A stretch of DNA of 49,780 nt from a virus, in IMG/VR virus record IMGVR_UViG_3300018059_000003, positions 1 through 49,780 of that record. The stretch is one strand, 5' to 3'. Shown piece by piece: positions 11,867 to 39,073 of the stretch (the stretch's first letter is position 1; the number at the start of each line of letters is the position of its first letter). The notes beneath the pieces were generated by a model, which saw only the letters and a program-made list of their open reading frames with translations, was not told the origin of the DNA and made no database searches. A program made the position numbers and the translations under genes.

Positions 11867-11888
11867 CGGAACGTAAGGGCAGACGGAG

Positions 11889-12185
11889 ATGAATGGAATT
11901 AACGCCAAGAGAGTTAAGGCCCTTAGAGATGCTTACGAAGCGGGCCTCAGTCTGCGTGGGGCGTCTGCTAGTTGCGGTATTCCGAAGAACACTGTCGAGC
12001 GGTATTACCGACGATGGAAGTCAACGGATTGGGGCGGCGACATGGCCTGTCGAGTGTCAGGGACAACCAAGTCCGCATGGAAGGCCGAAGCAGAACGTCG
12101 CGAAATGAGCCTCCACGCTCTTCTGACCGAAATAGTTGAATCGATAGCCGAAGACAATTTGTTCGCCGCAGTTTTGGAATCTTGA
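11889..12185 (+). CDS. HTH plus ribbon-helix-helix-like DNA-binding protein
   Basis: A 98-residue protein. The first 45 residues (LRDAYEAGLSLRGASASCGIPKNTVERYYRRWK) form a resolvase-type helix-turn-helix; the rest (VSGTTKSAWKAEAERREMSLHALLTEIVESIAED) resembles a ribbon-helix-helix arm. I infer a transcription regulator acting within the early operon. Confidence 0.65.
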   Translation: MNGINAKRVKALRDAYEAGLSLRGASASCGIPKNTVERYYRRWKSTDWGGDMACRVSGTTKSAWKAEAERREMSLHALLTEIVESIAEDNLFAAVLES

Positions 12186-12195
12186 GGAGAGCGCA

Positions 12196-12414
12196 GTGCG
12201 CTTTGAACCAGTTCGCACCAAGGACGATCTTGAAAGCCTCGACCAAGCCGAGATCGTGGAAGGCTATGTGTCTGCCGTGCGCGGCGACCCGGAGCCGGGG
12301 CCGAACCGAGGCCGCGCATTCTGGCACGGCTGGCGCAATCGAATGATCGATTATGGCGAGTTGCCGATGGACGACGCAGCAATGCAGCTAGCCCACGAAA
12401 TTGTGCGGCGTTGA
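12196..12414 (+). CDS. Hypothetical protein, Rmf/CrpP-like appearance
   Basis: A 72-residue protein with a GTG start preceded by GAGGAG. VEGYVSAVRGDPEPGPNRGRAFWHGWRNRMIDYG has the G..A...G ... W..GW..R pattern seen in ribosome-modulation-factor-like small proteins. The resemblance is weak and the role is unknown. Confidence 0.55.
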   Translation: MRFEPVRTKDDLESLDQAEIVEGYVSAVRGDPEPGPNRGRAFWHGWRNRMIDYGELPMDDAAMQLAHEIVRR

Positions 12415-12441
12415 CTGCGCATGAATGCAATGGAGATTTTA

Positions 12442-12813
12442 ATGCCTGACCAAGACGTTCCGATTGATGTGAAGCCCGGCCAGGGTGGCAAGCTCGTTTA
12501 TGACAAGAAGCGGCGGACTATTATCGCTGTGCCAGACAGCCAAGAAGCACTTTGCACAGCGCCTGGGTCTGATGACCTTACCTTCGGCTCCCTGCTCTAC
12601 GAGATGATCCGCACGCAATTCACGCGGCATGATCGCGCGGCTGGCCTAACTCCGCACCAGTTTTATCAATGCAACCATTGCGGCGGCAACGACAGTGCGA
12701 GCAGGAAAATGGCGCAGCGACCATCAACTGAATTGGTCGAACACAAGCTCGACTGCCTTATGGCGAAACACCTGCCACGTCTAAAGGCGATGGCGAACAA
12801 GGGTGCGACCTGA
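12442..12813 (+). CDS. Hypothetical protein with a zinc-knuckle-like motif
   Basis: A 123-residue protein from the ATG at 12,442, which has GGAG at 6 nt; earlier ATGs at 12,421 and 12,430 lack a site. FYQCNHCGGND followed by EHKLDCLMAKH gives two CxxC/HxxxxC-type metal ligands. It might bind zinc and nucleic acid. The function is unknown. Confidence 0.6.
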   Translation: MPDQDVPIDVKPGQGGKLVYDKKRRTIIAVPDSQEALCTAPGSDDLTFGSLLYEMIRTQFTRHDRAAGLTPHQFYQCNHCGGNDSASRKMAQRPSTELVEHKLDCLMAKHLPRLKAMANKGAT

Positions 12814-12875
12814 GCTGCGGTGATGACGCGGCAATGTGAGTTGCATTCGTAACCAACAACCAAAGGAGACTGACA

Positions 12876-13172
12876 ATGCAAGGCAACATCTCTACCGCTG
12901 GAATCGACAAGGGCAAACTGCTGGCCGCGCTTTACAACGCCTCCAAGCCGCAAGGTATGGGCTTCATGCACTACAATCCCGAACCGATGACAGCAGAAGA
13001 AGCCCGCGCACTCTTAGCGGACAACACCTACTTCGATTACCTCAAGGGCCGCGTGATGAAGGTCCGGATCGAAGGCGACGAACTCAATCCGCGCCTCTAC
13101 GACCGTGACAATGGCCAAGGTGCGGCTGCCTACGTGATCGAGCAACTTCGAGCCAAATCGCAAGCTGCGTAG
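12876..13172 (+). CDS. Conserved hypothetical protein
   Basis: A 98-residue protein preceded by AAAGGAGACTG. KLLAALYNASKPQGMGFMHY, then EEARALLADNTYFDYLKGRVMKV matches a small protein family common in phages and mobile regions, with a helical N-terminus and a beta-strand ending. No function is known. Confidence 0.7.
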   Translation: MQGNISTAGIDKGKLLAALYNASKPQGMGFMHYNPEPMTAEEARALLADNTYFDYLKGRVMKVRIEGDELNPRLYDRDNGQGAAAYVIEQLRAKSQAA

Positions 13173-16922: not shown

Positions 16923-17270
16923 TTATTTCACTCCATATTTTGATTGTGCGGCCAGGAAATCGCCAAGGGCGGCCTGCACCGCGCCAATAGAAGCCGCCGG
17001 GCTGAGTTGCGGATAGTTCTTGACAAAGTTGCGGGCGGAATTGAGCGCACCACGCACCTGCGGGATATGTACTTGCACGGCTTGGACCGCCGTCCGGCAT
17101 GATGGCGGGATGATCCGATCGGCACAGAGTTGTTTGTAGCCGTTGAAGGTAGTTACGGCTGTTCCAACACTAGCTTCGATGGCCGCAAGTTCATCGCGGC
17201 TAAACGGATTTTGGATCGTAGCGCAGGCCGCAAGGCTGAGCGCGAAAGCAAGAACGATTAGCTTTTTCAT
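16923..17270 (-). CDS. Lipoprotein in the lysis cassette (o-spanin-like position)
   Basis: A 115-residue protein from the ATG at 17,270. MKKLIVLAFALSLAACATIQ is a lipoprotein signal with lipobox LAAC, so the protein is lipid-anchored in the envelope. The mature part is helical (DELAAIEASVGTAVTTFNGYKQLC ... VHIPQVRGALNSARNFVKNY). The position after endolysin and holin suits an outer-membrane spanin, but the size is larger than Rz1 and other roles are possible. Confidence 0.65.
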   Translation of the reverse strand: MKKLIVLAFALSLAACATIQNPFSRDELAAIEASVGTAVTTFNGYKQLCADRIIPPSCRTAVQAVQVHIPQVRGALNSARNFVKNYPQLSPAASIGAVQAALGDFLAAQSKYGVK

Positions 17271-17271
17271 G

Positions 17272-17592
17272 TCACACCTGTTTCTTGAGGGCGTCGGCAA
17301 TTGCGACTATTTCGGGAGTTGGCGGGAGAGTTGCTGCGACTGCCGCAGCATTCGGGTTTGCGGCGATGTCGAGAATCTTGGACTTGGTTGAGGCTTTGTA
17401 GATGCCATAAGCAGCGGTTGCGAACGGCGTCACCATGGCAACCAGCTTCGTCATCTCCGCAATCACCTCATTCAATTGATTCCAGATCGCGTAGAGATCG
17501 ACGCTGTGCGACGACATGAATGCGATAGCGGCGACAGCCCCGCCCATGGCGGTGCCTAAGTGTGTTACTCCGGTTCTGACCTGTGGATTCAT
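17272..17592 (-). CDS. Holin candidate
   Basis: A 106-residue protein immediately after the endolysin gene. It has two hydrophobic helices (about residues 11-28 GTAMGGAVAAIAFMSSH and 45-66 EMTKLVAMVTPFATAAYGIYKAS) and a soluble tail. Similar proteins next to rhizobial endolysins are annotated as holins. This rests on topology and position rather than a family motif. Confidence 0.6.
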   Translation of the reverse strand: MNPQVRTGVTHLGTAMGGAVAAIAFMSSHSVDLYAIWNQLNEVIAEMTKLVAMVTPFATAAYGIYKASTKSKILDIAANPNAAAVAATLPPTPEIVAIADALKKQV

Positions 17593-17602
17593 TCGCTGCT
17601 CC

Positions 17603-18031
17603 TTATGGATAAATTGAACTCGGCAACTGGAAGTGCGGCATGTCGCAAAATGACCGCCAGTCGCCGCCCCACTCGACGCTCAATTTCAACTCCCGCGCCG
17701 CCTGCTTCATGCAACCGGAAAACTGCTTGTACAGCGGGCCATCCCAACGCAGATCGGGGCCGAAGATGAAAGCAACATCGATGGCCTTTCCAAATCCGTC
17801 CCTGCCGGGGATGTGCCGAGAGTTCATGGTCCGTGACGCGCCTTTGGCGACCAGAATTCGTTGCTCCGCTACCGAGCGCGTGCCGCATGTCACCACCGGA
17901 TCGAGTTCGGAAATTTCGACAGCGCGCCTATAGATTTTGACCAGATCGGGATGCACGCCCTTGAGGCTGGTTTCGCTGCGCTGCCATTGCTTGACGGATT
18001 GCTGATAGGATTTTGGAATTGGTAGAGCCAT
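17603..18031 (-). CDS. Endolysin, M15 D-Ala-D-Ala carboxypeptidase/L-alanyl-D-glutamate peptidase
   Basis: A 142-residue zinc peptidase of the M15 (VanY/Ply) type. The zinc and catalytic residues are visible: SRH (His73) with Asp85 in KAIDVAF, and Glu120/WGGDW followed by His133 in PHFQL. Such enzymes cut the peptide stems of peptidoglycan and release phage at lysis. There is no signal peptide, so it needs a holin; the next gene downstream is a good candidate. Confidence 0.9.
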   Translation of the reverse strand: MALPIPKSYQQSVKQWQRSETSLKGVHPDLVKIYRRAVEISELDPVVTCGTRSVAEQRILVAKGASRTMNSRHIPGRDGFGKAIDVAFIFGPDLRWDGPLYKQFSGCMKQAARELKLSVEWGGDWRSFCDMPHFQLPSSIYP

Positions 18032-18033
18032 GG

Positions 18034-19695
18034 CTACACATCCTCTCCGAGCGGATCGATCCAGCTAGTCAGATTTCCGCGTGTCACGTCAGCCGCGCCG
18101 GTTATGTTGGTGCGAGTGCGGATCGTCGCGCTGTTGTCGGTTCTGACCCGCACCAGGCACGAGAACCCATCAGCGTCGTTGGTCGTGGCTTGAACGCTGT
18201 GGATGGTTCCGCTGGCGGCCGAGTCGGTGCTGTCGAGTGATGAAAAGTAACTGTAGCCGCCGCCGCCGGTCGTCGCCGAGATCAAGATGGCGTTCATGGT
18301 GACGAGATGCTTGATGCCGGTCGGCACGTTATCGATAACCTGATTGACGGCGGTGGCGGCGGCATAGGCTGCGCTGAATTCCTCTACCGGTGTATTGAGC
18401 ACGACTTCATTGCGGTATTGCATGAAGCCCTGGATCGCGCCGCCGACCCGAACGCGTGACCCGAGCCTGCGGGCATAGACATAATCCGCGCCGGTCTTGT
18501 TGGCCTCGGCGTTGACAGCCGCCAGCACGGTCGCGGCATAGGCTGCGGTGTCGGGATCGGTCCCGGCCACGCCTTTATAGAAATACTTGTCTTCGTTGCC
18601 GTCCGCTTTCGACACCGTGAAATAGTGATAGGTGCCGTCCGCGATGGCCGCCGCCGAGTTGCGCCCGCCCAGCGGCGTGCCAGAGGTTCCGCCCGGCGCC
18701 CAATTCTGGTCGAGCTGCTTGCCCTGTGCTGACACCGTGATATTGGCGGTGTTGGTGATGTCGCGCCAGGAACCCGCCGTGTTGTTGATGTCGTTGGTGG
18801 CGTCGGTGCCGTTCGAGAGGATGCCGCCGCTGTGGAAGCCGCGCGGCAATGCCGTGGTGGCCGCCGCCCAAGCGGCGTCGGTGCCGTTCGAGGTCAGCAC
18901 ATGGGTCGCGGTGCCGAGCGCATATGCCGCCCATGCCGCCGTCTCGCGCCGCAGGATCATTCCTCGGGTTGAGCCGAATACCGAATCCAGCGCCGCCGTA
19001 ATGGTGCTGAACGCCAACGCATTCGACAGCCGGACCAGGATTTGACCGTTGGCGCTGGCGGTGATGTCGGCAGGGTCGCCGGTCGAGTTGGCCGCGCGCC
19101 CTTTGACCGAAACGCCCGCCATATTGACCAGGAAGGCATCGGTGATGGTGTCGTTTGCAACCACCGTGCCGACAGCATCGAGCGTGGTCGCGGTCAGCGC
19201 GCCGTCGCTATCGAAGGTCAGCGCCTTGCCCTGCCGGTCGGCCACCACCGGCAGCACCAAGTCGACCGCCTCGCCGGGGATGGCATAGATCGTGCGGGTC
19301 CGCAGCACGTCCCAGATTTCCCGCAGTCTGGCGGTGATATGGGTGATGGCCTGGTTGAAGGCGCGAGCCGACACACCGCCGCCTTCTGTGACTTGCGTGG
19401 CCCGTTGCGGCCTGTCGGCGCCTTCGATCTCGATAGTTCCGGTGCGCGCGGTGGTGAAGGTGATCCGGGCGTCGGTGATTGGGCGGGGCAGCGTTGCGAG
19501 CGAGCCGGATGGGCTATCCAGCGTCCAGTCGGTGATCGGGGTGGTTTTTACCCCATCGTCCCAAACCGCGACCCAATCGGAGAAGTCAGTACCGTTGCCG
19601 TAGATCGCAAAGTCGATGGTGATCGGCCCGACCGAGTCCGCAATGACGGCTGTGGTGCGACGTTCTGAATCTGGCAAGGCGGGTATTGCCGTCAT
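18034..19695 (-). CDS. Tail fibre protein, T7-gp17-like N-terminus
   Basis: A 553-residue protein. The N-terminal 150 residues (FAIYGNGTDFSDWVAVWDDG ... IEGADRPQRATQVTEGG ... FNQAITHITARLREIWDVL) match the virion-attachment domain of T7-like fibres. The middle is repetitive and rich in Gly, Thr and Ala, and the C-terminal part (GKQLDQNWAPGGTSGTPLGG ... VNQVIDNVPTGIKHLVTMN) is likely the receptor-binding part. It adsorbs the virion to the host surface. It starts 29 nt after a copy of the late-region motif and lacks a strong ribosome binding site. Confidence 0.8.
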   Translation of the reverse strand: MTAIPALPDSERRTTAVIADSVGPITIDFAIYGNGTDFSDWVAVWDDGVKTTPITDWTLDSPSGSLATLPRPITDARITFTTARTGTIEIEGADRPQRATQVTEGGGVSARAFNQAITHITARLREIWDVLRTRTIYAIPGEAVDLVLPVVADRQGKALTFDSDGALTATTLDAVGTVVANDTITDAFLVNMAGVSVKGRAANSTGDPADITASANGQILVRLSNALAFSTITAALDSVFGSTRGMILRRETAAWAAYALGTATHVLTSNGTDAAWAAATTALPRGFHSGGILSNGTDATNDINNTAGSWRDITNTANITVSAQGKQLDQNWAPGGTSGTPLGGRNSAAAIADGTYHYFTVSKADGNEDKYFYKGVAGTDPDTAAYAATVLAAVNAEANKTGADYVYARRLGSRVRVGGAIQGFMQYRNEVVLNTPVEEFSAAYAAATAVNQVIDNVPTGIKHLVTMNAILISATTGGGGYSYFSSLDSTDSAASGTIHSVQATTNDADGFSCLVRVRTDNSATIRTRTNITGAADVTRGNLTSWIDPLGEDV

Positions 19696-26898: not shown

Positions 26899-29541
26899 TC
26901 AGATTTCCACTTCGTAGGACAGTTCAAGCACGCGCAACGTGCCCGGCGTGGTCTTGGTCAGTTCCAGACGCGGATCGAAGTCAGAGCCATTCGGCTGGAA
27001 GGTCTCGACGCCCTCGCGTTGCGGCGGCGCGGCGTCCTGGTCCTCACCCTGCTTGTACGCCGCGATGATGGTCGGGTTGTTGCCACCCACCGCGCCGAAG
27101 TTGAACCCGGTGGAATTCTGGAACTTGACCGCGACCTCGCCGAGATTGCGTTTGTGCAAGGTCTGCTTGGCAGGTTGGCCCTCGCTGGCATGGGGGATGA
27201 ACGGCTCGAACGTGGCGTCATAGGCGAGCCCGACCCGCACCGTCGAGGCGGCAAAATCGTCGCCCTCCTCCAAGGTCAAGTCGCCATCGTCGTCGACCTC
27301 GCGAGTGCCGTAATAATACAGTCCGTCCATGACATCGACATCGCCGCCCGCGAACATCCACAGCGTACCGGTGCCGCCGTTGTCGGATTGCAGCACCGCG
27401 CCGGGATGTACGAATGTCGCCAGCGCCATGTACATATTGCCGGCGCTGGAATCGCTGATCCGTACCCAATGGTAGAGATAGGCGGTGTCCTGGTCGGTCG
27501 ACAGCAGCGTGATGGTGCCGGCATTGGCGTCAGCCGCCGTCAGCGATTTCAGCAACGTGCCGTCCGAACCAGTGGCGTCCGGCGCGGTATTGGAGCCGCG
27601 CAATTCGAAGGTGATGACGGCTGCGGTGTCCGACCAGCCGGCGTCGGAACTGGCATAGACCGTGGCGCTGCGCACCGGCTGCGCAACGGTCATCAACCGG
27701 CCATAGAACCCCGAGGTGCCAGCTCTGGCGCCGCCCTGCGCCGCCGTCTTGGTAATGTCGCCGTCGTCCAATGCGGTCAGTCCGCCGCCGCTGGTCAGGT
27801 CGCCGATCGCGGTGCCGCCGGTCGGATGATAGTCCAGTGCGTCCTCGGTCTGCGCCACCAAGGCGGCGGGCACGGCATTATAGGCCAGCTGAGCGTCGAG
27901 ATAGGCGTCCTTGTCCATTTCCTCGACCAGATAACGGTCGACGGAATCGATGGTGTATTTGACCGTGAACAGCACGGTGCCGGCGCGCGACGTGACCCAC
28001 TGGAACAGGCCCTCGCCGCCCGGCGTCCACGGCAACCAGCCCCACCATTTGCGGCGCGGGTCGAACCGCCCGACCGCAATCGAGCCGTCGTCGTTCAAAA
28101 CCATCAGGTAGCGCTCGGGGTATTCGCCGTCCCCGGTGGTGGCGACGATGGCGCTGGGGTTCGACAGTAGATGCGAGTGCCATTCCGCCAGATCGTCGGC
28201 GACGTAGGGCTGCGCGGTCTGTCCGGTCGGGATAATGCCGATGACTCGGCTGCCGCCGGCATTGATGAAGGCCAAGCCTTCCGCCGTCTCCACCGGGCGC
28301 ACCGTCGAGGCCGCATCCGAGGTGATGCGGCGGAATGTCACCGAACCTGGCACCAGCGGATTGCTCTCGCTGATCGGGATGCGAAACACCCCGCGCGAAG
28401 TGAACACGAATTGATCCGATCCGCCCATGACGTGATAGACGCGCGGCTCGCCGGTCATCAGTTCGACAATCGCACCGGACGGCAAGGCGGTGACATCGAA
28501 ATCGTTGAAGATGCCGATCGCGGACCAGCAGATCGCTTCCGGCAGGCTCGGGATATCGCAGAAGATCAGCCGTGAAACGTCCTGGTTGCAGGATTGCGGC
28601 CAGCCATAGGCGTCGCCGAATACCTGTTCGTCCCAAACGGTTGTCGCCCGTGGCGTCGAGGTCGCGGTAGCGGTGATCGCGGTGCGCTGGAACGGCCCAA
28701 CCAACGTGTCGGCGGTGGTGAAGCCGGTGCGGAAATTGAGCAATTGCACGTAGACGTAATTGTTGGGGCCGTCGATCTCGACCACTACGCCCTCGGTTTC
28801 CGTCACCGATCCCGACACCGGCTCGTCGATGGCGAAGCCCAATTCGGTGTCCGCTGTCACGGTCAAGCGCTGCACGATCAGCAGGGTTTCCAGGCACAGC
28901 GCGGTGCCGACCAGCGCCGTACTCACCGCCGTCACCCGCAGCCGCTTGTTGGCCCATTTGATCAGCGAGCCGATATGATCGGCGGTCAGCACGTCGTCGG
29001 AAAACGTGATCGTGACCGATCCGGTGACATCGCTCACTAACATCGTGATGCCGCGCTCGGCAATACGGGCGAACGGCACCTTGTCGATGCCGACGCCATC
29101 GGTGGCGAAGGTAAAATCCGCGATAGTCCAGGTGGTTTCGCCGTCCCATGCGCAGGTCAGAGGCCGCATGCCGGGGAAGCAGATCACGACGTTGCGTTTG
29201 ACCAGCGCAAAGGTGACTTGGTACGCGGTGGCAAAGCTCCATGGCATACCGGCAACACCCGCGACGATGGCGTTGGAACTGTCGCGGATTTTCAGGGTGC
29301 CCTGACCGAAGCAAAAGCGGTATGTGGTGTCCGAGGCAACATCGATTTCCTCGACTCTGGCCCGATCCGGAAACAGCGCCTCCCGCCCGCAGCGGAATTC
29401 CATCGCGCGTGGTGTCATGATCCGCATGTTCGACATCTGCCACCCGCCGGCCCGGACCAATGGCTCGTCGCTGCGCTCGGCATATTCATCGAGCTCGCCA
29501 GCCGAGAAATCGCGCTGCCGGATCACCTGCCGGGCGGCCAT
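26899..29541 (-). CDS. Tail tubular protein B (nozzle)
   Basis: An 880-residue protein starting MAARQVIRQRDFSAGELDEYAERSD, the usual start of phage tail tubular B/stabilisation proteins (DFsgGe ... R.D). The rest is beta-rich with many short propeller-like strands (WDGETTWTIADF, GSDQFVFTSRGVFRIP, NGDDG-type turns). It forms the tail nozzle below the tubular A ring. It overlaps the tubular A gene by one base. Confidence 0.85.
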   Translation of the reverse strand: MAARQVIRQRDFSAGELDEYAERSDEPLVRAGGWQMSNMRIMTPRAMEFRCGREALFPDRARVEEIDVASDTTYRFCFGQGTLKIRDSSNAIVAGVAGMPWSFATAYQVTFALVKRNVVICFPGMRPLTCAWDGETTWTIADFTFATDGVGIDKVPFARIAERGITMLVSDVTGSVTITFSDDVLTADHIGSLIKWANKRLRVTAVSTALVGTALCLETLLIVQRLTVTADTELGFAIDEPVSGSVTETEGVVVEIDGPNNYVYVQLLNFRTGFTTADTLVGPFQRTAITATATSTPRATTVWDEQVFGDAYGWPQSCNQDVSRLIFCDIPSLPEAICWSAIGIFNDFDVTALPSGAIVELMTGEPRVYHVMGGSDQFVFTSRGVFRIPISESNPLVPGSVTFRRITSDAASTVRPVETAEGLAFINAGGSRVIGIIPTGQTAQPYVADDLAEWHSHLLSNPSAIVATTGDGEYPERYLMVLNDDGSIAVGRFDPRRKWWGWLPWTPGGEGLFQWVTSRAGTVLFTVKYTIDSVDRYLVEEMDKDAYLDAQLAYNAVPAALVAQTEDALDYHPTGGTAIGDLTSGGGLTALDDGDITKTAAQGGARAGTSGFYGRLMTVAQPVRSATVYASSDAGWSDTAAVITFELRGSNTAPDATGSDGTLLKSLTAADANAGTITLLSTDQDTAYLYHWVRISDSSAGNMYMALATFVHPGAVLQSDNGGTGTLWMFAGGDVDVMDGLYYYGTREVDDDGDLTLEEGDDFAASTVRVGLAYDATFEPFIPHASEGQPAKQTLHKRNLGEVAVKFQNSTGFNFGAVGGNNPTIIAAYKQGEDQDAAPPQREGVETFQPNGSDFDPRLELTKTTPGTLRVLELSYEVEI

Positions 29542-30128
29542 CAGCCCCTCCGGACTTGGCGGGCGGTCCTGTGCCGGGTAATGAACAGCGCCTTTTTACC
29601 CTCCTGCTGGTCGCCCCTGGTCCGGGCGCGCTGCAACAGCATGTCGGCCTTGGCGAGATGGCGGTCGGCGGTGGCTTGGTCCTTTTTCAGCCCGGATTCG
29701 ATCCCGGCGTTGACCGCCTCCTGCAACGCGGTCTTGAACATGGCGGAGAGGTCGGCAACATCGGCCTCTTGGACGAATTTCGCCATCACGTCGTCGGTGG
29801 TCTCGCAGGACAGCAGGATTTCGTTGTTGACGATGCGGTATTCCTGCGGAACGTCGTCGATTTTGACCCAAATCAGGTGCAGGCAGCCGGTCGGCAGGGT
29901 GTAGGCGTCCTCGTAATGCTCATCCGGGCTGTCGCCGGTCCTGGTCAGTTCGGCAATCTCGGTGGAGAACTTGAATTCCGAGTCCTCCAACATGGCCTCG
30001 AACCAGGTGTCGTAGGCCGCCGAGCAGACATTCCACTCGTCCGTGCCGTCGTCCTCGCTGACGGGCTGGCGCTGGCCCTTGAGCAGCAGGCACCTCGACA
30101 CCAGGCTCAATTTGTCGTCGATCGGCAT
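29541..30128 (-). CDS. Tail tubular protein A
   Basis: A 195-residue protein. DKLSLVSRCLLLKGQRQP, NVCSAAYDTWFEAMLEDSEFKFSTEIAEL and LPTGCLHLIWVKID match the T7 gp11-like adaptor ring that joins portal and nozzle; EYRIVNNEILLSCETTDDVMAKFVQEADV is typical of the same family. It starts 30 nt after motif copy 3 and has no strong ribosome binding site. Confidence 0.85.
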   Translation of the reverse strand: MPIDDKLSLVSRCLLLKGQRQPVSEDDGTDEWNVCSAAYDTWFEAMLEDSEFKFSTEIAELTRTGDSPDEHYEDAYTLPTGCLHLIWVKIDDVPQEYRIVNNEILLSCETTDDVMAKFVQEADVADLSAMFKTALQEAVNAGIESGLKKDQATADRHLAKADMLLQRARTRGDQQEGKKALFITRHRTARQVRRG

Positions 30129-30215: not shown

Positions 30216-30539
30216 ATGGAAACAGTCGCATCCCTGATTGTTGCTTCGGTCGTCGGCTTTGGTCTCATCTTCGCTTTTTTTCGAAATGGACCTTCGACAT
30301 GGGCCGAAAAGTTCTTCATGCTGAAACTAGTTGGATGCATGTCCGGTTGGTTCCTTGTCGGCACGACCCTGGGCGGATTCATCGGCTGGTTTCTTGGCGA
30401 TGATTATGGCGGCTGGTTCTACGGCGCATGGGTTGGGGCAGACACTATTTTAGTGCTTGGCTTCTGTTGGTATGGGTACTGTCTGATTTTTGACCAAGAC
30501 AGAATTCCAAAAATTCCTGACAGCTTTCGACCGTACTAA
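30216..30539 (+). CDS. Plus-strand membrane protein (moron)
   Basis: A 107-residue protein oriented against the late operon. Hydrophobic segments (TVASLIVASVVGFGLIFAFF; KLVGCMSGWFLVGTTLGGFIGWFLG; GAWVGADTILVLGFCWYGYC) predict three to four transmembrane helices. No ribosome binding site is visible. A lone antisense membrane gene between virion genes is typical of a moron expressed in lysogens, for example in superinfection exclusion. The function is not known. Confidence 0.65.
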   Translation: METVASLIVASVVGFGLIFAFFRNGPSTWAEKFFMLKLVGCMSGWFLVGTTLGGFIGWFLGDDYGGWFYGAWVGADTILVLGFCWYGYCLIFDQDRIPKIPDSFRPY

Positions 30540-30577: not shown

Positions 30578-32854
30578 CTACGGCACATAAGCTGACATGC
30601 CGATCCCGGCTCGGAAATAAACATTCGCTGCTGGCGCTGCTAACGCCGCGTTCCAGCCAGCCTCTTTCGATTGCGAACGGGCGTTGGTGAGAAACGCCGC
30701 CGTCGTAGCTGTGCATCCAGCGGGCAGCGCGCCACAACCGGATATTTGAGCGTTGTAAGTTCCGACCGTCACAGTCGGATCGGTCAGTGTCGGTTCGCCG
30801 CCGGTCCAACCACTAGTGGTGCAAGCTGATACTTTGTACTTATTGCCAGAGAGGACCGTCCCCGAACCTAAGTCCTCGATAGGCGTACCACCCCAAGAGC
30901 AGATCACATTGTTGATAGCGGAGTTGACCCCAGAGCCAGAGATTTGAAGACCCCAATCGCCCGCACTCTGCGGATTGGCTTTGAACACAAGATTATTATA
31001 ATAGGTCATCGTCCCGACATCGAACGGATGACTGTTATAAGTAGCGATGAGAGCAGGCCCACCAGCACCACCACAATCAGCTAGACCCTGTATTCCTTCC
31101 GTGTAAACATTGTTGCTTATTACTCCGGTTTGCGCTTCCGGCATCCCAAAGTTAGCAGCTATTGGATTGCCGATTTGCAGATTATCATCTTGCGTCCCGC
31201 CACTGCGCTGCTGCGCCGCGCAGGAGTCATTCGCAATGATATTTTTTCTAAGAATTATTGGGGGATCGGTAAAAGTCCCGATGTAGAAATTATGATTGAA
31301 CGCGGTTTGCACGGCCCCCGACCAAGTGGCGGTGTTGTTTCCGGTTCCGCCGGTCGTATTCAAGAAAACAGCGGGGGCGATTGGAGTGACCGATACGTAG
31401 AACCCGCCTTGAGACGTGGTTGCGTTGGCGCTCATCGTGAGCTGCGTGGCGCTGTCGATGGAGATGATCGTGGTCGCCGCAGGAATGCCGCCAAAGACCG
31501 CGACGATACCAGCGCCAACCTGCATCGCCGTGGTATCGATCCCGGTGATGATCGGGCTGCCGTTGGTCACGGTGCCGGTGGTGTTGTTCACCGCGAAAAA
31601 CGGATTGACCGAGAAGGCGCTGGTCTCCGATGCCGTGGCGTTCTTGCTAAGCGTGATCTGCGTACCGCTATCGACCGAGACAATCGTGGTGTTGAACGGA
31701 ATGCCAACTCCCGTCACTAGCCTCTCGGTCGCGCCAGCCGCCATGCCAGCCGTGCTGGCGATTCCAGTGATGACCGGGCTGCCGTTGGTCTTCACCCCGC
31801 TGGAGCTTATGCCGGGGATGATCTTGAACGTCGTTCCGTTGTTGCTGAAAACATAGTACGACGTTCCGCTTAGTATCCCTCCATCGGACGAGGCGAATGT
31901 TATCCGGTTGCCCGCCGTCGGGATTGTCGGAAGCTTATTGCTCGTCCAAGTCACCACGGCTGGCGTGGCTTGCGTGACAGTCACCGACGCTGGCGTGATG
32001 AGAGTCGCATTCCAGCCATTGCGGTCGAACAGGTTTTCCTCGACCAGCACATCGGTATAACCCGACAACAAAAACCCGGACGAATTTCCAAAGATTGGAT
32101 TGTTGTTCGAATACTGATCGACGATGACGTTGCGGCGAATGCGCACATCGGTGTAGGTCGATCCTTGCATGTCGAAAGCAAAACGGTAGAAACTAAACTT
32201 GGTATCCTCGAACAAAAGAAAAGTTGCGCCAGCGAGGAACGAAATCGCGTTCCTGCCGCCCGCATTGCCATCGTACCCTGCGTTGGCTGGGTCAGCGACG
32301 TAGTTATAAAACTCAAGACCTACAACCGCTAAGCTGCCAGCAGCGCCGCCATAGAAAAGAATATTCCCGCTGGAATCATTGGACCTCAGAATCGGCCTAG
32401 CGCCGGTGCCGTAGGAAGATATCAGCACAGGAGCGGACGCGGAGGCCCCCGTGGGCATGCCGTTGCCAAACCCCTCGGCGGTCCAAGTGTCGCCCTTCTT
32501 CAACAGCAGCCAATCGGGCTTATTGCCCCGCGTCAGCGAGACGCCTTTGGCTATCGTCAGGCACGGCGCGGCTTCGGCAGCGGCTTGAGTTGTGGCCGAA
32601 GTGCAAGTGCCGTCATTGCCGGTGGAGCTTGAAACCGTTGTGTAGCACGTTCCGGTCTGCGTCCCCGTGCCAAGAGCATTGCATGTGCCAGTACCGGCCG
32701 TGGCGCAAAGATCGGTCCAGCCGTTGACGACTGTCCAGCAAGTGCTGGCACCACTAGGCGCGCCGCTAAGAAGGATTGCCTCGGAGCAAGCAATAGCCGA
32801 GAGCGAGAGGAACGTAGTTAGGAGGAAGGCGGTGAGTTTTTTGGTCATAGTCAC
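30578..32854 (-). CDS. Exported right-handed beta-helix protein
   Basis: About 758 residues. The N-terminus MTKKLTAFLLTTFLSLSAIACSE is a Sec-type signal (the ATG at 32,848, or a GTG at 32,854 in GTGA overlap). The body has repeated short strands of a parallel beta-helix (YGTGARPILRSNDSSGNILF, FLLFEDTKFSFYRF, RIRRNVIVDQYSNNN, DVLVEENLFDRNG), as in pectate-lyase folds and tailspikes, with a central insert of three similar repeats (TNGSPIITGID, TTIISIDSATQLTMS). It probably binds or cuts surface polysaccharide. A signal peptide is not expected on a tailspike, so it may act outside the lysogen or infected cell. Confidence 0.75.
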   Translation of the reverse strand: MTMTKKLTAFLLTTFLSLSAIACSEAILLSGAPSGASTCWTVVNGWTDLCATAGTGTCNALGTGTQTGTCYTTVSSSTGNDGTCTSATTQAAAEAAPCLTIAKGVSLTRGNKPDWLLLKKGDTWTAEGFGNGMPTGASASAPVLISSYGTGARPILRSNDSSGNILFYGGAAGSLAVVGLEFYNYVADPANAGYDGNAGGRNAISFLAGATFLLFEDTKFSFYRFAFDMQGSTYTDVRIRRNVIVDQYSNNNPIFGNSSGFLLSGYTDVLVEENLFDRNGWNATLITPASVTVTQATPAVVTWTSNKLPTIPTAGNRITFASSDGGILSGTSYYVFSNNGTTFKIIPGISSSGVKTNGSPVITGIASTAGMAAGATERLVTGVGIPFNTTIVSVDSGTQITLSKNATASETSAFSVNPFFAVNNTTGTVTNGSPIITGIDTTAMQVGAGIVAVFGGIPAATTIISIDSATQLTMSANATTSQGGFYVSVTPIAPAVFLNTTGGTGNNTATWSGAVQTAFNHNFYIGTFTDPPIILRKNIIANDSCAAQQRSGGTQDDNLQIGNPIAANFGMPEAQTGVISNNVYTEGIQGLADCGGAGGPALIATYNSHPFDVGTMTYYNNLVFKANPQSAGDWGLQISGSGVNSAINNVICSWGGTPIEDLGSGTVLSGNKYKVSACTTSGWTGGEPTLTDPTVTVGTYNAQISGCGALPAGCTATTAAFLTNARSQSKEAGWNAALAAPAANVYFRAGIGMSAYVP

Positions 32855-33687
32855 AAACTAAATCTACCGACGAGATACGCATCCATACAGTCGCGGTCAG
32901 AGGTTCCCAATGCTGCGCTGTAAATTATGATCTCCGCAACCGGCCCGTACCATGCACGGGTTAGATCAGGCACGCTCAACGCCAACACACGGGCGCCTAT
33001 AACAATACTATTGCTGTCGGTAGGAAGGGTGCTGATCCAACTTTTAGCGGAGGCGACCGAAGAACCGACAGAATTGTTGATATAAAATTTGCTGTTCGTT
33101 CCGTCTAATATATTTCCGAGACGATAATTGGTGGCAAGAGAGATTGCTTGGGTGGACGCATCGCCATTACGATAATAAGCAAGTCCGTTGTTTGTTGCAT
33201 CTCTCGCAATCCAAGAAACGCTCGCATTAGAATCCCAGTCATTAAGAGTATCATTTACAATACCAACAAGGCCGCCGTCAGCTTCCGTCCCGGTTAACAT
33301 TTGCCCAGCAACGAAAACCGAACCGGTTGTTCCAGTTCCCATATCAACGGTACTAGAAGCAGTGGTCAACACCCCGCCAGCTTGGAAATCGATCGCAGGG
33401 AAACCGTTGAAACCGGTGGCGTTGTACGGCACAGTCCCGCTGTTGGTCAGCGTGTAGCCATGGCCGCTATTATCAGTCAGCGCCGTAATTGGATCGCCAG
33501 TACGTCCAGTGTCGGCCTTGTACCAAGCAACGAGACCGGAAGGAGTGGCAGGAGTCCAGCCTGCGCACGCACCTGCCGCAGCGATCGAAACCTGCGGGCG
33601 CGATTGCCAATAGGAATACGCCGGAGCCAACAGCAACGATGCCGCAGCGAGAACCGCCGCGAGTAGTATCGTCTTGCCGAACCTCAC
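32851..33687 (-). CDS. Exported LamG/concanavalin-like protein
   Basis: A 278-residue protein with an N-terminal hydrophobic signal (residues 5-25, TILLAAVLAAASLLLAPAY). LVAWYKADTGRTGDPITALTDNSGHG is the characteristic opening of LamG/concanavalin A-like jelly-roll domains, and SDRDCMDAYLVGRF closes the fold. Such domains bind glycans. It overlaps both neighbours by 4 nt, so the three exported proteins are made together. Confidence 0.75.
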   Translation of the reverse strand: MRFGKTILLAAVLAAASLLLAPAYSYWQSRPQVSIAAAGACAGWTPATPSGLVAWYKADTGRTGDPITALTDNSGHGYTLTNSGTVPYNATGFNGFPAIDFQAGGVLTTASSTVDMGTGTTGSVFVAGQMLTGTEADGGLVGIVNDTLNDWDSNASVSWIARDATNNGLAYYRNGDASTQAISLATNYRLGNILDGTNSKFYINNSVGSSVASAKSWISTLPTDSNSIVIGARVLALSVPDLTRAWYGPVAEIIIYSAALGTSDRDCMDAYLVGRFSL

Positions 33688-34418
33688 AGCTTGAATCCCC
33701 AGGAGTTAACCGTGACCGATCCGCCGGTTCCGGGCGCGGGCGACTGCACCGCGATGCTGGTGTTGGCGGCGCTCGCCGGAACGCACGGCTGGAAAATCAT
33801 TTCGGTGATGCCCATGCCGCTCGCTGCCGGCGCGGTCCAGTGGGTGAAATTCATCGTCGAGGTGATGACGCCGGTTAACACCACGCTGCTGGTCGCCGCC
33901 GACGTGGCGTTTGACCGCACCGAAAATCCACAGATGTAGGTTGTGACCGACGACGCGCCCGCGAGTGTCGCCGTGGTGGCGCTGGTCGTTCCGCTCGCGC
34001 TCGCGGTATATGGCGTTGCTTGCGACGCATACGGCAGATTGCTGGACTCGATCAGCGTTTCGCCCTTGATGTTCATCACCGGCATGTTGGTTTGCGCGGT
34101 GGTGTCGGTCGGGCGCGTGGACAACGTGCGGAGGCCGATCGGCGACATGGTTTGGCCCGAAGACGTTGAGCCTTGAGAAACGCCAACCGCGCTGGTGATA
34201 TTGACGACGCCGGGATTGGTGGATGTGAGAATTTCCGTGCCGGCGGAATTGACCTGCACGCTGGCCGGACAGACCTTCGTGGTGAAACAGGTGAAGGCGA
34301 AGATGGTTGTGCCGACGCCTTGCGTGACGGTGTAATCCGACATCGCGTAGCTGATCGGGAACGCCAAGATTATGGCGGCCGATACGACCTTGATCCAGCT
34401 TCCAAAAAACTTGCGCAT
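33684..34418 (-). CDS. Exported protein of unknown function
   Basis: A 244-residue protein with a signal-like N-terminus (WIKVVSAAIILAFPISYAMS). The mature part is rich in Ser, Thr and Ala, with short beta strands (TVTQGVGTTIFAFTCFTTKVCPASVQV) and four cysteines. It is coupled to the LamG gene (ATGA). It could be a beta-rich adhesin or appendage protein; no family is recognised. Confidence 0.65.
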   Translation of the reverse strand: MRKFFGSWIKVVSAAIILAFPISYAMSDYTVTQGVGTTIFAFTCFTTKVCPASVQVNSAGTEILTSTNPGVVNITSAVGVSQGSTSSGQTMSPIGLRTLSTRPTDTTAQTNMPVMNIKGETLIESSNLPYASQATPYTASASGTTSATTATLAGASSVTTYICGFSVRSNATSAATSSVVLTGVITSTMNFTHWTAPAASGMGITEMIFQPCVPASAANTSIAVQSPAPGTGGSVTVNSWGFKL

Positions 34419-34419
34419 C

Positions 34420-34794
34420 CTAGCCTCCTGAAAGTCCCGGTATGTATTGGCTGTCCATCAAAACGGGCGCGGCGGAAACCGCCGTCACCGTGATATCGAA
34501 CGACTTCGACGCCACCGCTGGCGTGACGCCCGAGACCGCCGCCGTGATGGTGTCCGTTCCGGCCGTCAGCGTGTCGGCCACGGTGACGACGCCCGTGCTG
34601 GAATCGACCGCGTATTTGCCGCTGGCGTCATCGGTCAGCGACCACGACGGCGTGCCGCTGGTACGGCCTAGGATGGTGAGCGTGCCGACGACGGTGCCTA
34701 CCGTGTCGTCGTCTTCCGCCGTGTTGCCAGACAGCCGCATCGACGGTTTGACGCCCAGCAGGATCAATCGTTTTTGCAGTGGGCTCGCCATCAA
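34420..34794 (-). CDS. Cadherin/Ig-like domain protein
   Basis: A 124-residue protein without a signal peptide. SLTDDASGKYAVDSSTGVVTVADTLTAGTDTITAAVSG followed by SFDITVTA is a cadherin-like/Ig-like beta sandwich, as found on phage tails and capsids and in surface adhesins. It may decorate the virion or bind carbohydrate. Confidence 0.65.
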   Translation of the reverse strand: MMASPLQKRLILLGVKPSMRLSGNTAEDDDTVGTVVGTLTILGRTSGTPSWSLTDDASGKYAVDSSTGVVTVADTLTAGTDTITAAVSGVTPAVASKSFDITVTAVSAAPVLMDSQYIPGLSGG

Positions 34795-34795
34795 T

Positions 34796-35143
34796 TCACC
34801 ACGGCGCCAGAACGAGCCGCAGTTCGCGCGCCGCCGCCTGCGTCACCGCCGAACCCGCCGTTCCAGACCTGACCTTGAGAAACCGGATGCCGACGAAATC
34901 GGCCAGTGGGATGATGATGGCGCGCGAGGACGACGCCGTGACGTTGTATTCAGTGCCGGCGGAATCGTAGAGATTGTTGAAGGTCACGTTGTCGAAGCTG
35001 GATTGGAACGTCAGGTTCGCCGCCGTCCAGACGTTCGGCATTTCGATGCGGGCGAGCCTTGATCCGGCCAGATCGATGGCGTCGGACAACGATGCACTGG
35101 CCGCGATCGAGGCGATGACATTCGGGGGGTCGCCAGCAGCCAT
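34796..35143 (-). CDS. Beta-rich virion-associated protein
   Basis: A 115-residue protein with GGAGG 5 nt before its ATG and a copy of the late-region motif 48 nt upstream. SDAIDLAGSRLARIEMPNVWTAANLTFQSSFDNVTFNNLYDSAGTEYNV resembles small phage structural proteins that form a beta barrel. It opens the block of genes encoding exported proteins. Confidence 0.65.
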   Translation of the reverse strand: MAAGDPPNVIASIAASASLSDAIDLAGSRLARIEMPNVWTAANLTFQSSFDNVTFNNLYDSAGTEYNVTASSSRAIIIPLADFVGIRFLKVRSGTAGSAVTQAAARELRLVLAPW

Positions 35144-35191
35144 GATGGCCTCCGTTCCTGTGCCGCGAACCTGCGGCCACGGACGAAAGCG

Positions 35192-35206
35192 AGCAACGCA
35201 CCGCTA
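35192..35206 (-). promoter_or_regulatory. Late-region motif, copy 4
   Basis: TAGCGGTGCGTTGCT on the minus strand, 48 nt before the 115-residue gene. Its TAG is the stop codon of the frame-shifted C-terminal part of the O-antigen ligase. A degenerate 11-bp match (AGCAACGCACC on the plus strand) lies at 35,734. Confidence 0.65.
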
Positions 35207-35640
35207 CATGGTGTCGGGGTTCTGGTTGACCGGGATCGCCAGCGGCGGCAGATGCGGCACCACCGACATGATGAACAGCACTTGCTCGGCGGCCTCGGGC
35301 TTGCGGTCGAGTTGGATCAGGAATCCGGCGAGGTTGCGCCGCAGATCGTGGGCGAACGGATTGACCGCAAGTTCGGCCCTTAAGCTCGCCATGCACGGCT
35401 CGGCCGAGCCTTTCCACCTCACCTCGGAACAGAATTTCGACGGCGCAAAGCGGAGTTCATAATCGAACGGGAACAGCCGCGCCGCCGCCTGCATCCGGGC
35501 GAAGCGTTCGGCCTTGGTCCCGAAACTCTCGGGCACGGCGGATGCGGCCATAATTGCGGCGGTAATATTGCAAGCCCCGAACCACAGCCCCGTCGCGGCA
35601 TAGATGGCCAAGAGCCAATGCCGCCAGCGCCGCCGTGACC
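35204..35640 (-). pseudogene. C-terminal continuation of the O-antigen ligase in the +1 frame
   Basis: This frame reads LLAIYAATGLWFGACNITAA, then KAERFARMQAAARLFPFDYELRF and a TPR-like VNPFAHDLRRNLAGFLIQLDRKPEAAEQVLFI. It has the normal composition of a protein, whereas the other frame turns Arg-rich here. It has no start signal of its own, so it is best explained as the end of the ligase after a +1 shift near 35,605-35,625. An assembly error, a mutation or a programmed shift could be the cause. Confidence 0.6.
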
Positions 35641-36632
35641 GGCCAATGCAGGGGAAATCCAGGAATGCCCTCCACCACAAACGCGAGCAGCAGCGCCCGC
35701 GCCGGGGTGAGGGAACCCGCCAGCGCAAAGCTGAGCAACGCACCAAGCAGCAATGCGCCGGGGCCGTATTCGTAGATCAGTTCCAGCGCGTCGTTGTGGG
35801 CGTGCGACGGGCGGCTCTCGAAAAAGTCGTGGCGCTTCATGTGGCCGGGAAACAACGTGTAATACGATCCCGCCCCCGATCCGGTCCAGGTCAGGCCGGC
35901 CACGCTGTCGCGCCAAATGTCCAATCGCTGTAATGTGCTGGATTGATGCGGCGAATGGTTCGACAACACGATGGCCAGCAATACCAGCCCCGCCAGCAGC
36001 GAAACCGCCAGCGTGCGCGAGCGCGGCCAAACCCACGCGAGGCCAACCGCCGCCAGCGCCAGCAGCGCGCCCCGTCCCATCGGCAGCACCGCCGCCGGCA
36101 GGCACAGCATGGCCGCGAAATATTGGCGGTATAGTACCAGCGCCACCATCACCAGGACTGCGGCCTCGGCCAGATAATTGCCGACCACGAATAATCCTGC
36201 CGGGCCGGATTTCTGCGGGATGCCGTCGAAGCCGATGACTTGTGCCAGCACCAGCGAGGAGTTGAGGGCGATGCCGATGCCTGCCCCGAGCAACACAGGT
36301 TCTAGCGAAACCAGCCGCGAGCCGACCAGGTACAGCCCGGCGAGGGCGGCCCAATGCCACAGCGCCAGCACGCCAAGCGTTGGATCGGGCGCCCATGACA
36401 GCGAGGCCATGGTGAAGGCGAGGAAGCCAAAGCCCAGCAGATCGGGCCATTTGACGGGCGCGTTATCTTTCCAGCAAAAAATTAACGCCAGAATCGGCCC
36501 ACCGGCATAGATCAGCGCCCAGCGCGGCAGATCGCGGTGCCCGATGATCGGTGGCACCAGCAGCACGGTCAGGACAAAGAAAAACGCCCCGACCAGAAGG
36601 CCGGGGCGAGTTTGCGTCGCGGGAGGAGACAC
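35457..36632 (-). CDS. O-antigen ligase/polymerase-like membrane protein (N-terminal part, frameshifted)
   Basis: 391 codons; the last 45 or so are Arg-rich and probably out of the true frame. About nine hydrophobic helices precede a Wzy_C/O-antigen ligase signature: PMGRGALLALAAVG, LQRLDIWRDSVAGLTWTGSGAGSYYTLFPG and RPSHAHNDALELIYEYGPGALLLG (HN at 279-280). Family members join or polymerise lipopolysaccharide or capsule repeats at the periplasmic face of the inner membrane. In a prophage such a gene would change the host surface (serotype conversion, receptor loss). Coding quality passes to the +1 frame near 35,605-35,625. Confidence 0.8.
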   Translation of the reverse strand: MSPPATQTRPGLLVGAFFFVLTVLLVPPIIGHRDLPRWALIYAGGPILALIFCWKDNAPVKWPDLLGFGFLAFTMASLSWAPDPTLGVLALWHWAALAGLYLVGSRLVSLEPVLLGAGIGIALNSSLVLAQVIGFDGIPQKSGPAGLFVVGNYLAEAAVLVMVALVLYRQYFAAMLCLPAAVLPMGRGALLALAAVGLAWVWPRSRTLAVSLLAGLVLLAIVLSNHSPHQSSTLQRLDIWRDSVAGLTWTGSGAGSYYTLFPGHMKRHDFFESRPSHAHNDALELIYEYGPGALLLGALLSFALAGSLTPARALLLAFVVEGIPGFPLHWPVTAALAALALGHLCRDGAVVRGLQYYRRNYGRIRRAREFRDQGRTLRPDAGGGAAVPVRL

Positions 36633-36639
36633 GTAACGG

Positions 36640-37218
36640 CTAGTTGAAGTAGCCGTAAACCACGATCATGTTGATGCTAGAATTGTTCAGCACGCAGCTC
36701 ACGCAATCGAGATAGAGCCGCGTATCGACAGTCCGCGAGAACGAGGCCCGGATCAGCGTCGAGCTGGTGGTGGCGACGCTGGATGCGAGCAGGCCGAGCG
36801 CGGACACGACCTGCGCGCTGCCGTTGGTGGTGCCGACCTTGATGCCGCCGGCCAGATTGGTGCCGGAGGTTTCCTCGACGGTGATGGCCGAGATGAAGGT
36901 GCCGGCCGGAAGGTCGACGAAGTTGCCGCTGGCCGATGTGGTGATGCCGGTTACGGCGACCGAGCCGAACGGCGGTTCGACCGAGAAGCCGGCGGCGATG
37001 GCGGCGCCGACGTTGGCCTGCTGAATCCGGGCGCAGCCACGGGCGTTGAGCGAATATGTCACGCTTGAGGTTGCGGCCCATTGCGACGGACCCAGCGCGG
37101 CGCCGGTTCGTGACGGGGCGCACATCCTCACCGCTGCGGCGTCGGCCGGGGTGAAGCTGGCCGGAACCGCCGCCAACGCGGCGAGCAGGGCCAGGACAAT
37201 CAGCGCGCTACGTTTCAT
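36640..37218 (-). CDS. Exported protein of unknown function
   Basis: A 192-residue protein with a clear Sec signal (MKRSALIVLALLAALAAVPASFTPADA, likely cut after ADA). The mature part is beta-rich and Gly/Thr/Ser-rich (GSVAVTGITTSASGNFVDLP, AGTFISAITVEE) with four cysteines. It lies 7 nt before the O-antigen ligase gene and overlaps the upstream gene by 4 nt. It is the fourth exported product of the capsid-to-tail block. The role is unknown. Confidence 0.7.
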   Translation of the reverse strand: MKRSALIVLALLAALAAVPASFTPADAAAVRMCAPSRTGAALGPSQWAATSSVTYSLNARGCARIQQANVGAAIAAGFSVEPPFGSVAVTGITTSASGNFVDLPAGTFISAITVEETSGTNLAGGIKVGTTNGSAQVVSALGLLASSVATTSSTLIRASFSRTVDTRLYLDCVSCVLNNSSINMIVVYGYFN

Positions 37219-37625
37219 GGTGCAAGCTCCTTCTCGGTATTGGTCGGTAGCGTTTCCGGCGCAGCGGCAGAAAGCGGGGCTTCGCGCTCGCGGCGCTTGA
37301 CCTCGGCGCCGATGATGGCGTTGGCGATGTCGGACGTGCAGTTCTTCTCGGCGCCGAGCGTGACCGCGAGTTTTTTCCGCTCAGGCCAGGATAGCGCGAG
37401 CCAGTCTTGCGGGATCGGATCGGGCGGAACGTCGGCTATGACGCGGACGATCTTCTTTTCCCGAGGAGCAGCGGCGTCGGAGGGCGGTTGCTCGGTCGAG
37501 TAGCGGCCCTTGCCGCGTTTCAGCGCTTCGCGGGCGCGGATGGCGTACATCTCGATCCAGCCGGGATCGGGCTTGCCGTCGTCGTTGGTGCGTTCGTTGT
37601 CCCAGACCTTGACGATCTCTGGCAC
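37215..37625 (-). CDS. Hypothetical late protein
   Basis: A 136-residue protein. The N-terminus (PEIVKVWDNERTNDDGKPDPGWIEMYAIRAREALKRGKGRY) and middle (PIPQDWLALSWPERKKLAVTLGAE) resemble small hypothetical proteins lying after capsid genes in rhizobial phages. It is charged, lacks a signal peptide and ends in a disordered tail. The function is unknown. Confidence 0.65.
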   Translation of the reverse strand: MPEIVKVWDNERTNDDGKPDPGWIEMYAIRAREALKRGKGRYSTEQPPSDAAAPREKKIVRVIADVPPDPIPQDWLALSWPERKKLAVTLGAEKNCTSDIANAIIGAEVKRREREAPLSAAAPETLPTNTEKELAP

Positions 37626-37654: not shown

Positions 37655-38095
37655 TCACTGGCCGGGCAGTTTGGCGATGAACGCCTTGAAGTTGATACCT
37701 GTGGCGATGGTGCCGGCCACCACGATGTAGACCCGGAGGTATTGGTAAACCGTGTCGTCCTGGTAATTGGTGAACAGCAGCTCGTAGCGTCCGGTGGTGG
37801 AATCCTGAGCGCCGCCTTGGCGCACTTCGGTGGCGCCGAGATTTAGTTGTCCGAGGTTCTCGACACCCGAGGCGAAGGCCGAGTCGTTCGAGCCTTGGAC
37901 GATGATGTCGTATTCCTCGTCGTTCGAGGCAATCTCGACGGCGCTCACATCGACCACCAGCACGGCGTCGAGCCGCGCGGCGCCGACATTCTTGACCTTG
38001 GCCGCTCCGGAGACCGTGGCTGCGGCGGTTGCCGCGACCAGACCGGCGTCCTTCATCAGCATATCGGCGTCGAAATCGTAGGTGCGCAGGCCCAT
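37655..38095 (-). CDS. Capsid-associated structural protein
   Basis: A 146-residue protein 36 nt after the capsid gene. It starts GLRTYDFDADMLMKDAG and is beta-rich (LDAVLVVDVSAVEIASNDEEYDIIVQGSND ... YQYLRVYIVVAGTIATGINF). Proteins of this pattern follow the major capsid gene in many podoviruses and siphoviruses and may be decoration or joining proteins. This is inferred from position. Confidence 0.65.
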   Translation of the reverse strand: MGLRTYDFDADMLMKDAGLVAATAAATVSGAAKVKNVGAARLDAVLVVDVSAVEIASNDEEYDIIVQGSNDSAFASGVENLGQLNLGATEVRQGGAQDSTTGRYELLFTNYQDDTVYQYLRVYIVVAGTIATGINFKAFIAKLPGQ

Positions 38096-38131: not shown

Positions 38132-39073
38132 TCAGGCGACGATCGCGGCGTTAGTCCAGCTATCCAAGCGGTGGAGGCAATATTTGCCTTCGTCTACGAG
38201 GCCGATGTCCCATGAAAGGTGATCGCGAAGCGTTATCTGGTCTTCCAGCAGACCGCAGTCCTTGATCGACAGCGAGGAGTGCTGGATGCCGTGTACACCG
38301 GCTTCGCCGAACTTGATGATGTAGAGCGACGCCGTGACGGCCGAGCCGCCGCCGGAAGCGACCTCGTTGAATTGCAGGACCGGCGTATGATCGTCTTTCT
38401 CGTAACCGATCAGGAACGGGAAGCCGCGATAGGTCATTTTCGGCATGCCGAGCTGGTCCCAGGTCTGGATCACGAACCCGGTCAGCGTCGAAGTGCGCGC
38501 CGCCGCGATCCACAGCGGGATCGAGTCGTAGGGCACCAGGATCGCGCAATTGCCGTTCTGCTTGTTCACGGCATTGAGCGCGACATCGAGTTTGCCGAGC
38601 GACAGCGCCGCGCCGCCCGACGAGGCCGAATTGTGCGTGTTGCGGCTGAACAGGGTGCAGCGGGCTTGGAGGCCGTTGAATTCCCGCGCGTTCGAGGTGT
38701 TGTCGCCGACCACAAAAACGTCGGCCCACTTCCGGCCGGCGGCGGCGAGCAACATCTGGCGTTGCTGTGCGCGCCGGGTCTCGCCCTGGCGGCGCACGAT
38801 GGCGCTATCGATGTCGATGTCGTGGTCCATGATAAAGGACGCTTCCTGGAACGGATCGACATGACCGGCACCGGTCGAAGAACCTTCGTTGATGCCACGG
38901 AATACCGGGCTTGGCAGCGATGCCTGCCGGGTGCCTTCCCAGATCGGACCGGTCATGCCGGCGATCGGCAGCATCCCGAAGATGTCCGTCGATCCCGCGA
39001 ACATCTCGATTAGCGGGCGCTCAGAGCTGGCGCCCATGCCCCGGGCATATTCTGGAAGTGTCTGCATCGCCAT
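38132..39073 (-). CDS. Major capsid protein
   Basis: A 313-residue protein immediately after the scaffold gene. TDIFGMLPIAGMTGPIWEGTRQASLPSPVFRGINEG resembles the N-terminal arm and E-loop, and VPYDSIPLWIAAARTSTLTGFVIQTWDQLGMPKMTYRGFPFLIGY the P and A domains of an HK97-fold capsid protein. Size and position fit well. It should be the most abundant protein of the virion. Confidence 0.85.
   Translation of the reverse strand: MAMQTLPEYARGMGASSERPLIEMFAGSTDIFGMLPIAGMTGPIWEGTRQASLPSPVFRGINEGSSTGAGHVDPFQEASFIMDHDIDIDSAIVRRQGETRRAQQRQMLLAAAGRKWADVFVVGDNTSNAREFNGLQARCTLFSRNTHNSASSGGAALSLGKLDVALNAVNKQNGNCAILVPYDSIPLWIAAARTSTLTGFVIQTWDQLGMPKMTYRGFPFLIGYEKDDHTPVLQFNEVASGGGSAVTASLYIIKFGEAGVHGIQHSSLSIKDCGLLEDQITLRDHLSWDIGLVDEGKYCLHRLDSWTNAAIVA

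Follow-up and report, generated by a model that had tools for sequence, protein, structure and literature searches.

Tailed-phage virions are taught as being built wholly in the cytoplasm, and in P22 the spikes attach in vitro to finished particles. To our knowledge, no route is known in tailed phages by which particles are completed with exported parts, and a literature search that fell short of most subscription papers turned up no virion protein, tail fibres included, that had been described with a signal peptide. Described cases of phage proteins with signal peptides include endolysins such as Lys44 of phage fOg44 (reviewed in PMC6116005), and the absence of a signal peptide has even served as an indicator of phage origin (PMC6199706). 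Like the Lys44-type endolysins, the proteins described below are late phage proteins with a cleavable signal that point to export by the host Sec system, but the former are lysis enzymes and not virion-type proteins, and the endolysin of the phage studied here (17603-18031) carries no signal.

The window, by which we mean the whole 49,780-base stretch of DNA analyzed, is a single virus record (IMGVR_UViG_3300018059_000003) and belongs to a T7-like podophage. Its late module lies on the minus strand and has the T7-like content of terminase, portal (phrog_332), scaffold, capsid, tail tubular proteins A and B, internal virion proteins, T7-type fibre, and M15 endolysin. An integrase-like gene suggests a temperate lifestyle, which we regard as likely. 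The space between the capsid partner protein and tail tubular protein A, here called the slot (Table 1), is filled with genes that are tightly packed in the late operon (gaps of -152 to 7 bp, one 60-bp gap excepted), and their strand yielded no promoter-like site. Four-base overlaps, part of a sequence-only reading made before this analysis, are present at three junctions (37215/36640, 33684/32851, and 32851/30578). The GC content is 0.56 at 30-34 kb versus ~0.64 in the virion genes, and because of this drop genes 30578 and 32851 look recently acquired. A 107-aa multi-spanning membrane protein (METVASLIVASVVGFG...) is encoded on the opposite strand (30216-30539, +), in the 449-bp gap before tail tubular A, and is a candidate moron. 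Elsewhere in the late module, a small lipoprotein-like protein (LSLAAC; 16923-17261, -) follows the holin-like gene (17272-17592) and the endolysin gene and is likely a spanin or lysis accessory protein.

Table 1. Features of the window, with coordinates from its first base.
Feature	Coordinates	Strand	Remarks
Tyrosine integrase-like protein	9499-10821	+	Pfam E 1.8e-5, just under cut-off
T7 gp17-type tail fibre	18034-19695	-	Signal-less in the window; starts MTAIPALPDSERR...
Tail tubular protein A	29541-30128	-	phrog_394, E 1.5e-19; right edge of slot
Exported fibre/spike-like protein (predicted), 758 aa	30578-32854	-	Signal; Cys-rich (13 Cys); weak matches to phrog_1980 (tail fibre) and phrog_17105
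Exported protein (predicted)	32851-33687	-	Signal; weak match to phrog_10356 "virion structural protein", E 4e-6
Exported protein (predicted)	33684-34418	-	Signal; 4 Cys; in one cluster with signal-bearing slot proteins from L036, L046, L057, L063, and L064
124-aa protein	34420-34791	-	No signal; cadherin-like by eye only
115-aa protein	34796-35143	-	No signal
Companion ORF	35204-35611 (or to 35746)	-	One TM and a TPR-like, putatively periplasmic domain; other frame, overlaps Wzy_C end; start uncertain, TTG 35611 or further up
Wzy_C (O-antigen ligase/polymerase)-type multi-spanning membrane protein	35457-36632	-	RPxHAHNDxLE motif
Intrinsic terminator	36577-36608 (hairpin 36608-36585)	-	10-bp stem, 9 GC, then TTTTTCTTT; 32 bp past E1 stop; inside 5' end of Wzy_C frame
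E1, exported protein (predicted), ~190 aa	36640-37218	-	Signal residues 1-27, A25-x-A27; invariant C33 and C62; cement-protein-like body
Small non-exported protein	37215-37625	-	Sits where the conserved first slot gene does; its cluster comprises 78 slot proteins, 0 with signal
Capsid partner protein	37655-38095	-	Conserved beside capsid; left edge of slot
Major capsid protein	38132-39073	-	phrog_212, E 2e-35

A capsid profile search yielded 80 viral and 9 bacterial loci, the relatives in bacterial genomes being mainly from Rhizobiales (Bosea, Microvirga, Rhizobium, Gellertiella, and a Methylocystaceae MAG). In most members of the clade around the window, the slot measures 1.3-8.9 kb and encodes largely signal-bearing proteins, eight of them in L035, and three phages share the Wzy_C cassette described below; in distant relatives (~50% capsid identity) the same space is mostly 0.3-0.7 kb long and holds one small signal-less protein. 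One phage outside the clade that carries E1 homologues, L076, has a signal-bearing tail fibre in its slot (11694-12971; phrog_32740, E 2e-14), while its own T7-type fibre is signal-less.

All four Sec-type signal peptides claimed by the sequence-only reading between capsid and tail tubular A were recovered with our home-made scoring, which combines n-, h-, and c-regions with the -3/-1 rule. Each of the four genes encodes a positive n-region, a hydrophobic core, and a site of the signal peptidase I type, with predicted cleavage (slash) at MKRSALIVLALLAALAAVPASFTPADA/AAVRM for gene 36640, MRKFFGSWIKVVSAAIILAFPISYA/MSD for 33684, MRFGKTILLAAVLAAASLLLAPA/YSYW for 32851, and MTMTKKLTAFLLTTFLSLSAIA/CSEA for 30578. 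Identical scoring found signals in 48 of 115 non-redundant slot genes of the relatives versus 4 of 266 core virion genes (Fisher p 2.6e-24, a value inflated by phylogenetic non-independence). Across 49 cleavage sites, alanine occupies position -3 in 39 and position -1 in 45. The signals thus exceed chance and are under selection, and Sec export of the proteins that bear them is well supported as an inference. Resemblance to a Tat motif was limited to single cases, and Tat signals were set aside. Signal-bearing slot proteins contain 1.49 Cys per 100 aa, compared with 0.41 in core virion proteins, and mature sequences hold an even number of Cys in 16/16 E1 proteins and 25/33 other signal-bearing proteins versus 113/241 core virion proteins; enrichment and even numbers together fit with oxidation in the periplasm.

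The names previously given to individual slot proteins fared less well. Gene 30578, read as a beta-helix protein, gave no beta-helix match and hit no Pfam family at E 0.1; gene 32851, called LamG-like, gave no LamG/concanavalin match and no Pfam family, leaving the phrog_10356 match of Table 1; and the cadherin-like label of gene 34420 found no backing in Pfam. A right-handed beta-helix does score above the Pfam cut-off in another slot spike, L055 13155. Among INPHARED phages, no homologue of 30578, 32851, or the L055 spike was found, and a single-sequence scan of viral records returned no relative of 30578.

E1, the product of gene 36640, has 16 homologues with 26-44% identity to the window protein. 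In this set of 17, the cleavage site A25-x-A27 is invariant while its middle residue varies (D, E, S, N, K, H, Y, A, or F), and both C33 and C62 are present throughout. Selection for a disulphide and for cutting by signal peptidase is expected to produce this combination of fixed cysteines and a fixed A-x-A with a free middle residue. The E1 sequence profile matches a single chain among 177,635 in the PDB, the Pam1 cement protein (7eel chain H, E 1e-4), which is also the best PDB match of the predicted fold (pLDDT 80; E 7.8e-5, with a modest TM-score of 0.29-0.37). E1 differs from Pam1 cement protein in its signal peptide and its pair of invariant cysteines, and it is known from sequence and predicted fold; given this modest similarity we consider it a candidate relative of cement/decoration proteins. 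No E1 homologues were found among INPHARED phages or, in a search run without a positive control, in 397 Hyphomicrobiales genomes. The aligned E1 proteins differ too much in sequence to serve as a search pattern. Signal-less E1 paralogues with 0-2 Cys directly adjoin E1 in three phages (L036 10773, L057 12688, and L064 4987) and are possibly a cytoplasmic counterpart.

Exactly one T7-type fibre domain was found in 34 of the 41 records searched. The window's fibre gene sits directly behind those of the internal virion proteins, and the predicted fold of its N-domain (AF2 pLDDT 82), which aligns with those of signal-bearing fibres, has phage tail-fibre and tail-complex structures as its top Foldseek matches, among them the fibre anchors of LME-1, Kp7, PhiM1, T7 (7boz), and Kp9. 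What departs from T7 gp17 in the window's clade is a Sec signal that precedes this domain, usually together with a Cys-x-Cys. When the N-termini of 30 relatives were read, 15 had a cleavable signal directly ahead of PxPxLPD, typically as A-x-A/QAPPPVPALPD. The signal-less fibres of the window, of L032 (the window's sister), and of the outgroup have their first residue at the domain boundary or a little ahead of it. Cys-x-Cys occurs within the virion-attachment domain of 12/15 signal-bearing fibres and 0/14 signal-less ones. Eight of the 15 signal-bearing fibres occupy the canonical gp17 position, directly after an internal virion protein, and two further ones lie in the slot (L009 and L035). 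On the capsid tree, the fibre signal needs at least three changes: it is found in 14 fibres of a clade of 16, is absent in the pair formed by the window and L032, and appears as a separate case in L096. None of ~24 other alphaproteobacterial T7-type fibres read had a signal, and when INPHARED phages were searched with the signal-bearing N-domain, the sole match was the fibre of Microcystis phage Mwe-JY08, which has no signal.

The O-antigen ligase/polymerase-like membrane protein noted earlier is supported. The window's protein alone scores below threshold for Wzy_C (28.3 bits against a cut-off of 31.7) and is backed by its two homologues, all three matching the domain (best E 1.6e-8). In the window, L032, and L039, the cassette lies directly behind E1, the large loop carries RPxHAH[NS]D, and a companion ORF with one TM and a TPR-like domain overlaps the Wzy_C end. 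A programmed frameshift between the two was not favoured, each phage having a separate overlapping frame with usable starts. The putative Wzy_C domain with its HxH(N/S)D region resembles phage O-antigen polymerases and ligases known from serotype conversion; unlike those, the window's gene stands in a late virion operon behind an intrinsic terminator, and its TPR-like part is in a separate overlapping frame. Several phages with E1 have a strong intrinsic terminator behind that gene, as many outgroup phages do behind the small slot gene; the arrangement resembles that of T7, where a terminator stands behind the capsid gene. In the window and L039 (13233-13258), hairpin and T-run code for the start of the Wzy_C frame (PGL[LI][VA]G[AV]F[FS]F), so that Wzy_C would be expressed by read-through only. 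With the terminator at this position, E1 would belong to the capsid unit, and transcripts of Wzy_C and the spikes would arise by read-through. Wzy_C homologues were absent from INPHARED phages and from a single-sequence viral scan; a search with the three-sequence alignment returned the two phages already known to carry it and L165, in which no marker of the window's lineage was found.

These observations bear on several explanations. The main rival to ours, that of the sequence-only reading, holds that the exported proteins are a secreted or surface set and not virion parts, and that they bind, trim, or remodel the polysaccharide of the infected or lysogenic cell so as to block superinfection or free progeny. 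Real export signals, a Wzy_C membrane protein in the slot transcription unit of three phages, the beta-helix spike of L055, and the likely temperate lifestyle all speak for it. Yet the sole T7-type fibre, with an intact attachment domain, has a similar signal in 15 relatives, E1 is cement-like, and the slot genes sit in the late operon with no promoter-like site of their own on the strand, and we judge this explanation to have about one chance in four. The premise behind it, that virion proteins do without signals and that an export signal excludes a virion role, fails because the relatives' only fibre, with a fibre-anchor fold, is signal-bearing and because E1 appears to be a cement relative. 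What stands of the proposed coordinated polysaccharide set is the selection on the export signals and the Wzy_C cassette, which by its sequence is probably a real surface modifier in the three phages and makes that reading partly right; lysogenic conversion from the slot position is doubtful, since the genes are packed in the late operon and show no promoter-like site on their strand.

It had also been suggested that the hydrophobic N-termini stay uncleaved as part of the virion, where they would be inserted into, or cling to, a membrane or the particle. Long hydrophobic segments and extended n-regions at some candidate starts agree with such anchors, but this is improbable: A-x-A is invariant at the right distance across the 17 E1 proteins and recurs as A-x-A/Q in the fibres, the layout of charged, hydrophobic, and polar parts is typical of cleaved signals, and the homologous fibre of the window and outgroup does without the segment. 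Least probable is that the signals are artefacts of start-codon choice or chance hydrophobic runs; the fibre starts do lack a strong Shine-Dalgarno sequence and the caller is home-made, but the same scoring leaves core virion genes nearly signal-free, and the site is conserved over 17 diverged E1 homologues.

We favour, at a probability of roughly 55%, the reading that the island encodes virion-surface proteins that are made late, routed through Sec, cleaved, locked by disulphides, and joined to particles at lysis, and that the Wzy_C cassette of some phages alters the polysaccharide of the producing cell. The cargo would be a cement-like decoration protein and fibre- or spike-like proteins, joined in most close relatives by the canonical T7-type fibre. 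Synthesized late with genuine Sec signal peptides, these proteins would be transferred to the periplasm, processed by signal peptidase I, and locked there by disulphide bonds. Holin and endolysin would then open the cell, and the exported parts would join virions leaving via the periplasm, a process that may be called finishing in transit; where present, the Wzy_C cassette would change the surface polysaccharide of the producing cell. We infer this assembly of particles after export, together with any benefit to the phage, from the arrangement described above. It would be feasible after lysis because P22 spikes attach to finished particles in vitro; against it stands the need for a folded trimeric fibre made in the periplasm to encounter particles once the cell has lysed. 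As the window's own fibre has no signal, its exported set would consist of E1 and the spike-like proteins, whose role in the virion is weaker. The broader proposal, that a tailed-phage lineage Sec-exports its own virion-surface proteins, fibre and decoration protein included, for the sake of periplasmic disulphides and that its particles reach completion beyond the cytoplasm, as the cell lyses or afterwards, is tentative, and we hold it at slightly less than even odds.

A clade with a cleavable signal and matching cysteines on its single canonical fibre, beside an exported decoration-like protein, amounts to a natural experiment on the site of virion finishing. It could explain how disulphide-bearing fibres are made and why receptor-binding proteins might be kept from the cytoplasm. 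Taken together, our results suggest that a soil-type family of bacterial viruses places export tags on shell- and fibre-like proteins, including the single main fibre, and may finish its particles with exported parts.
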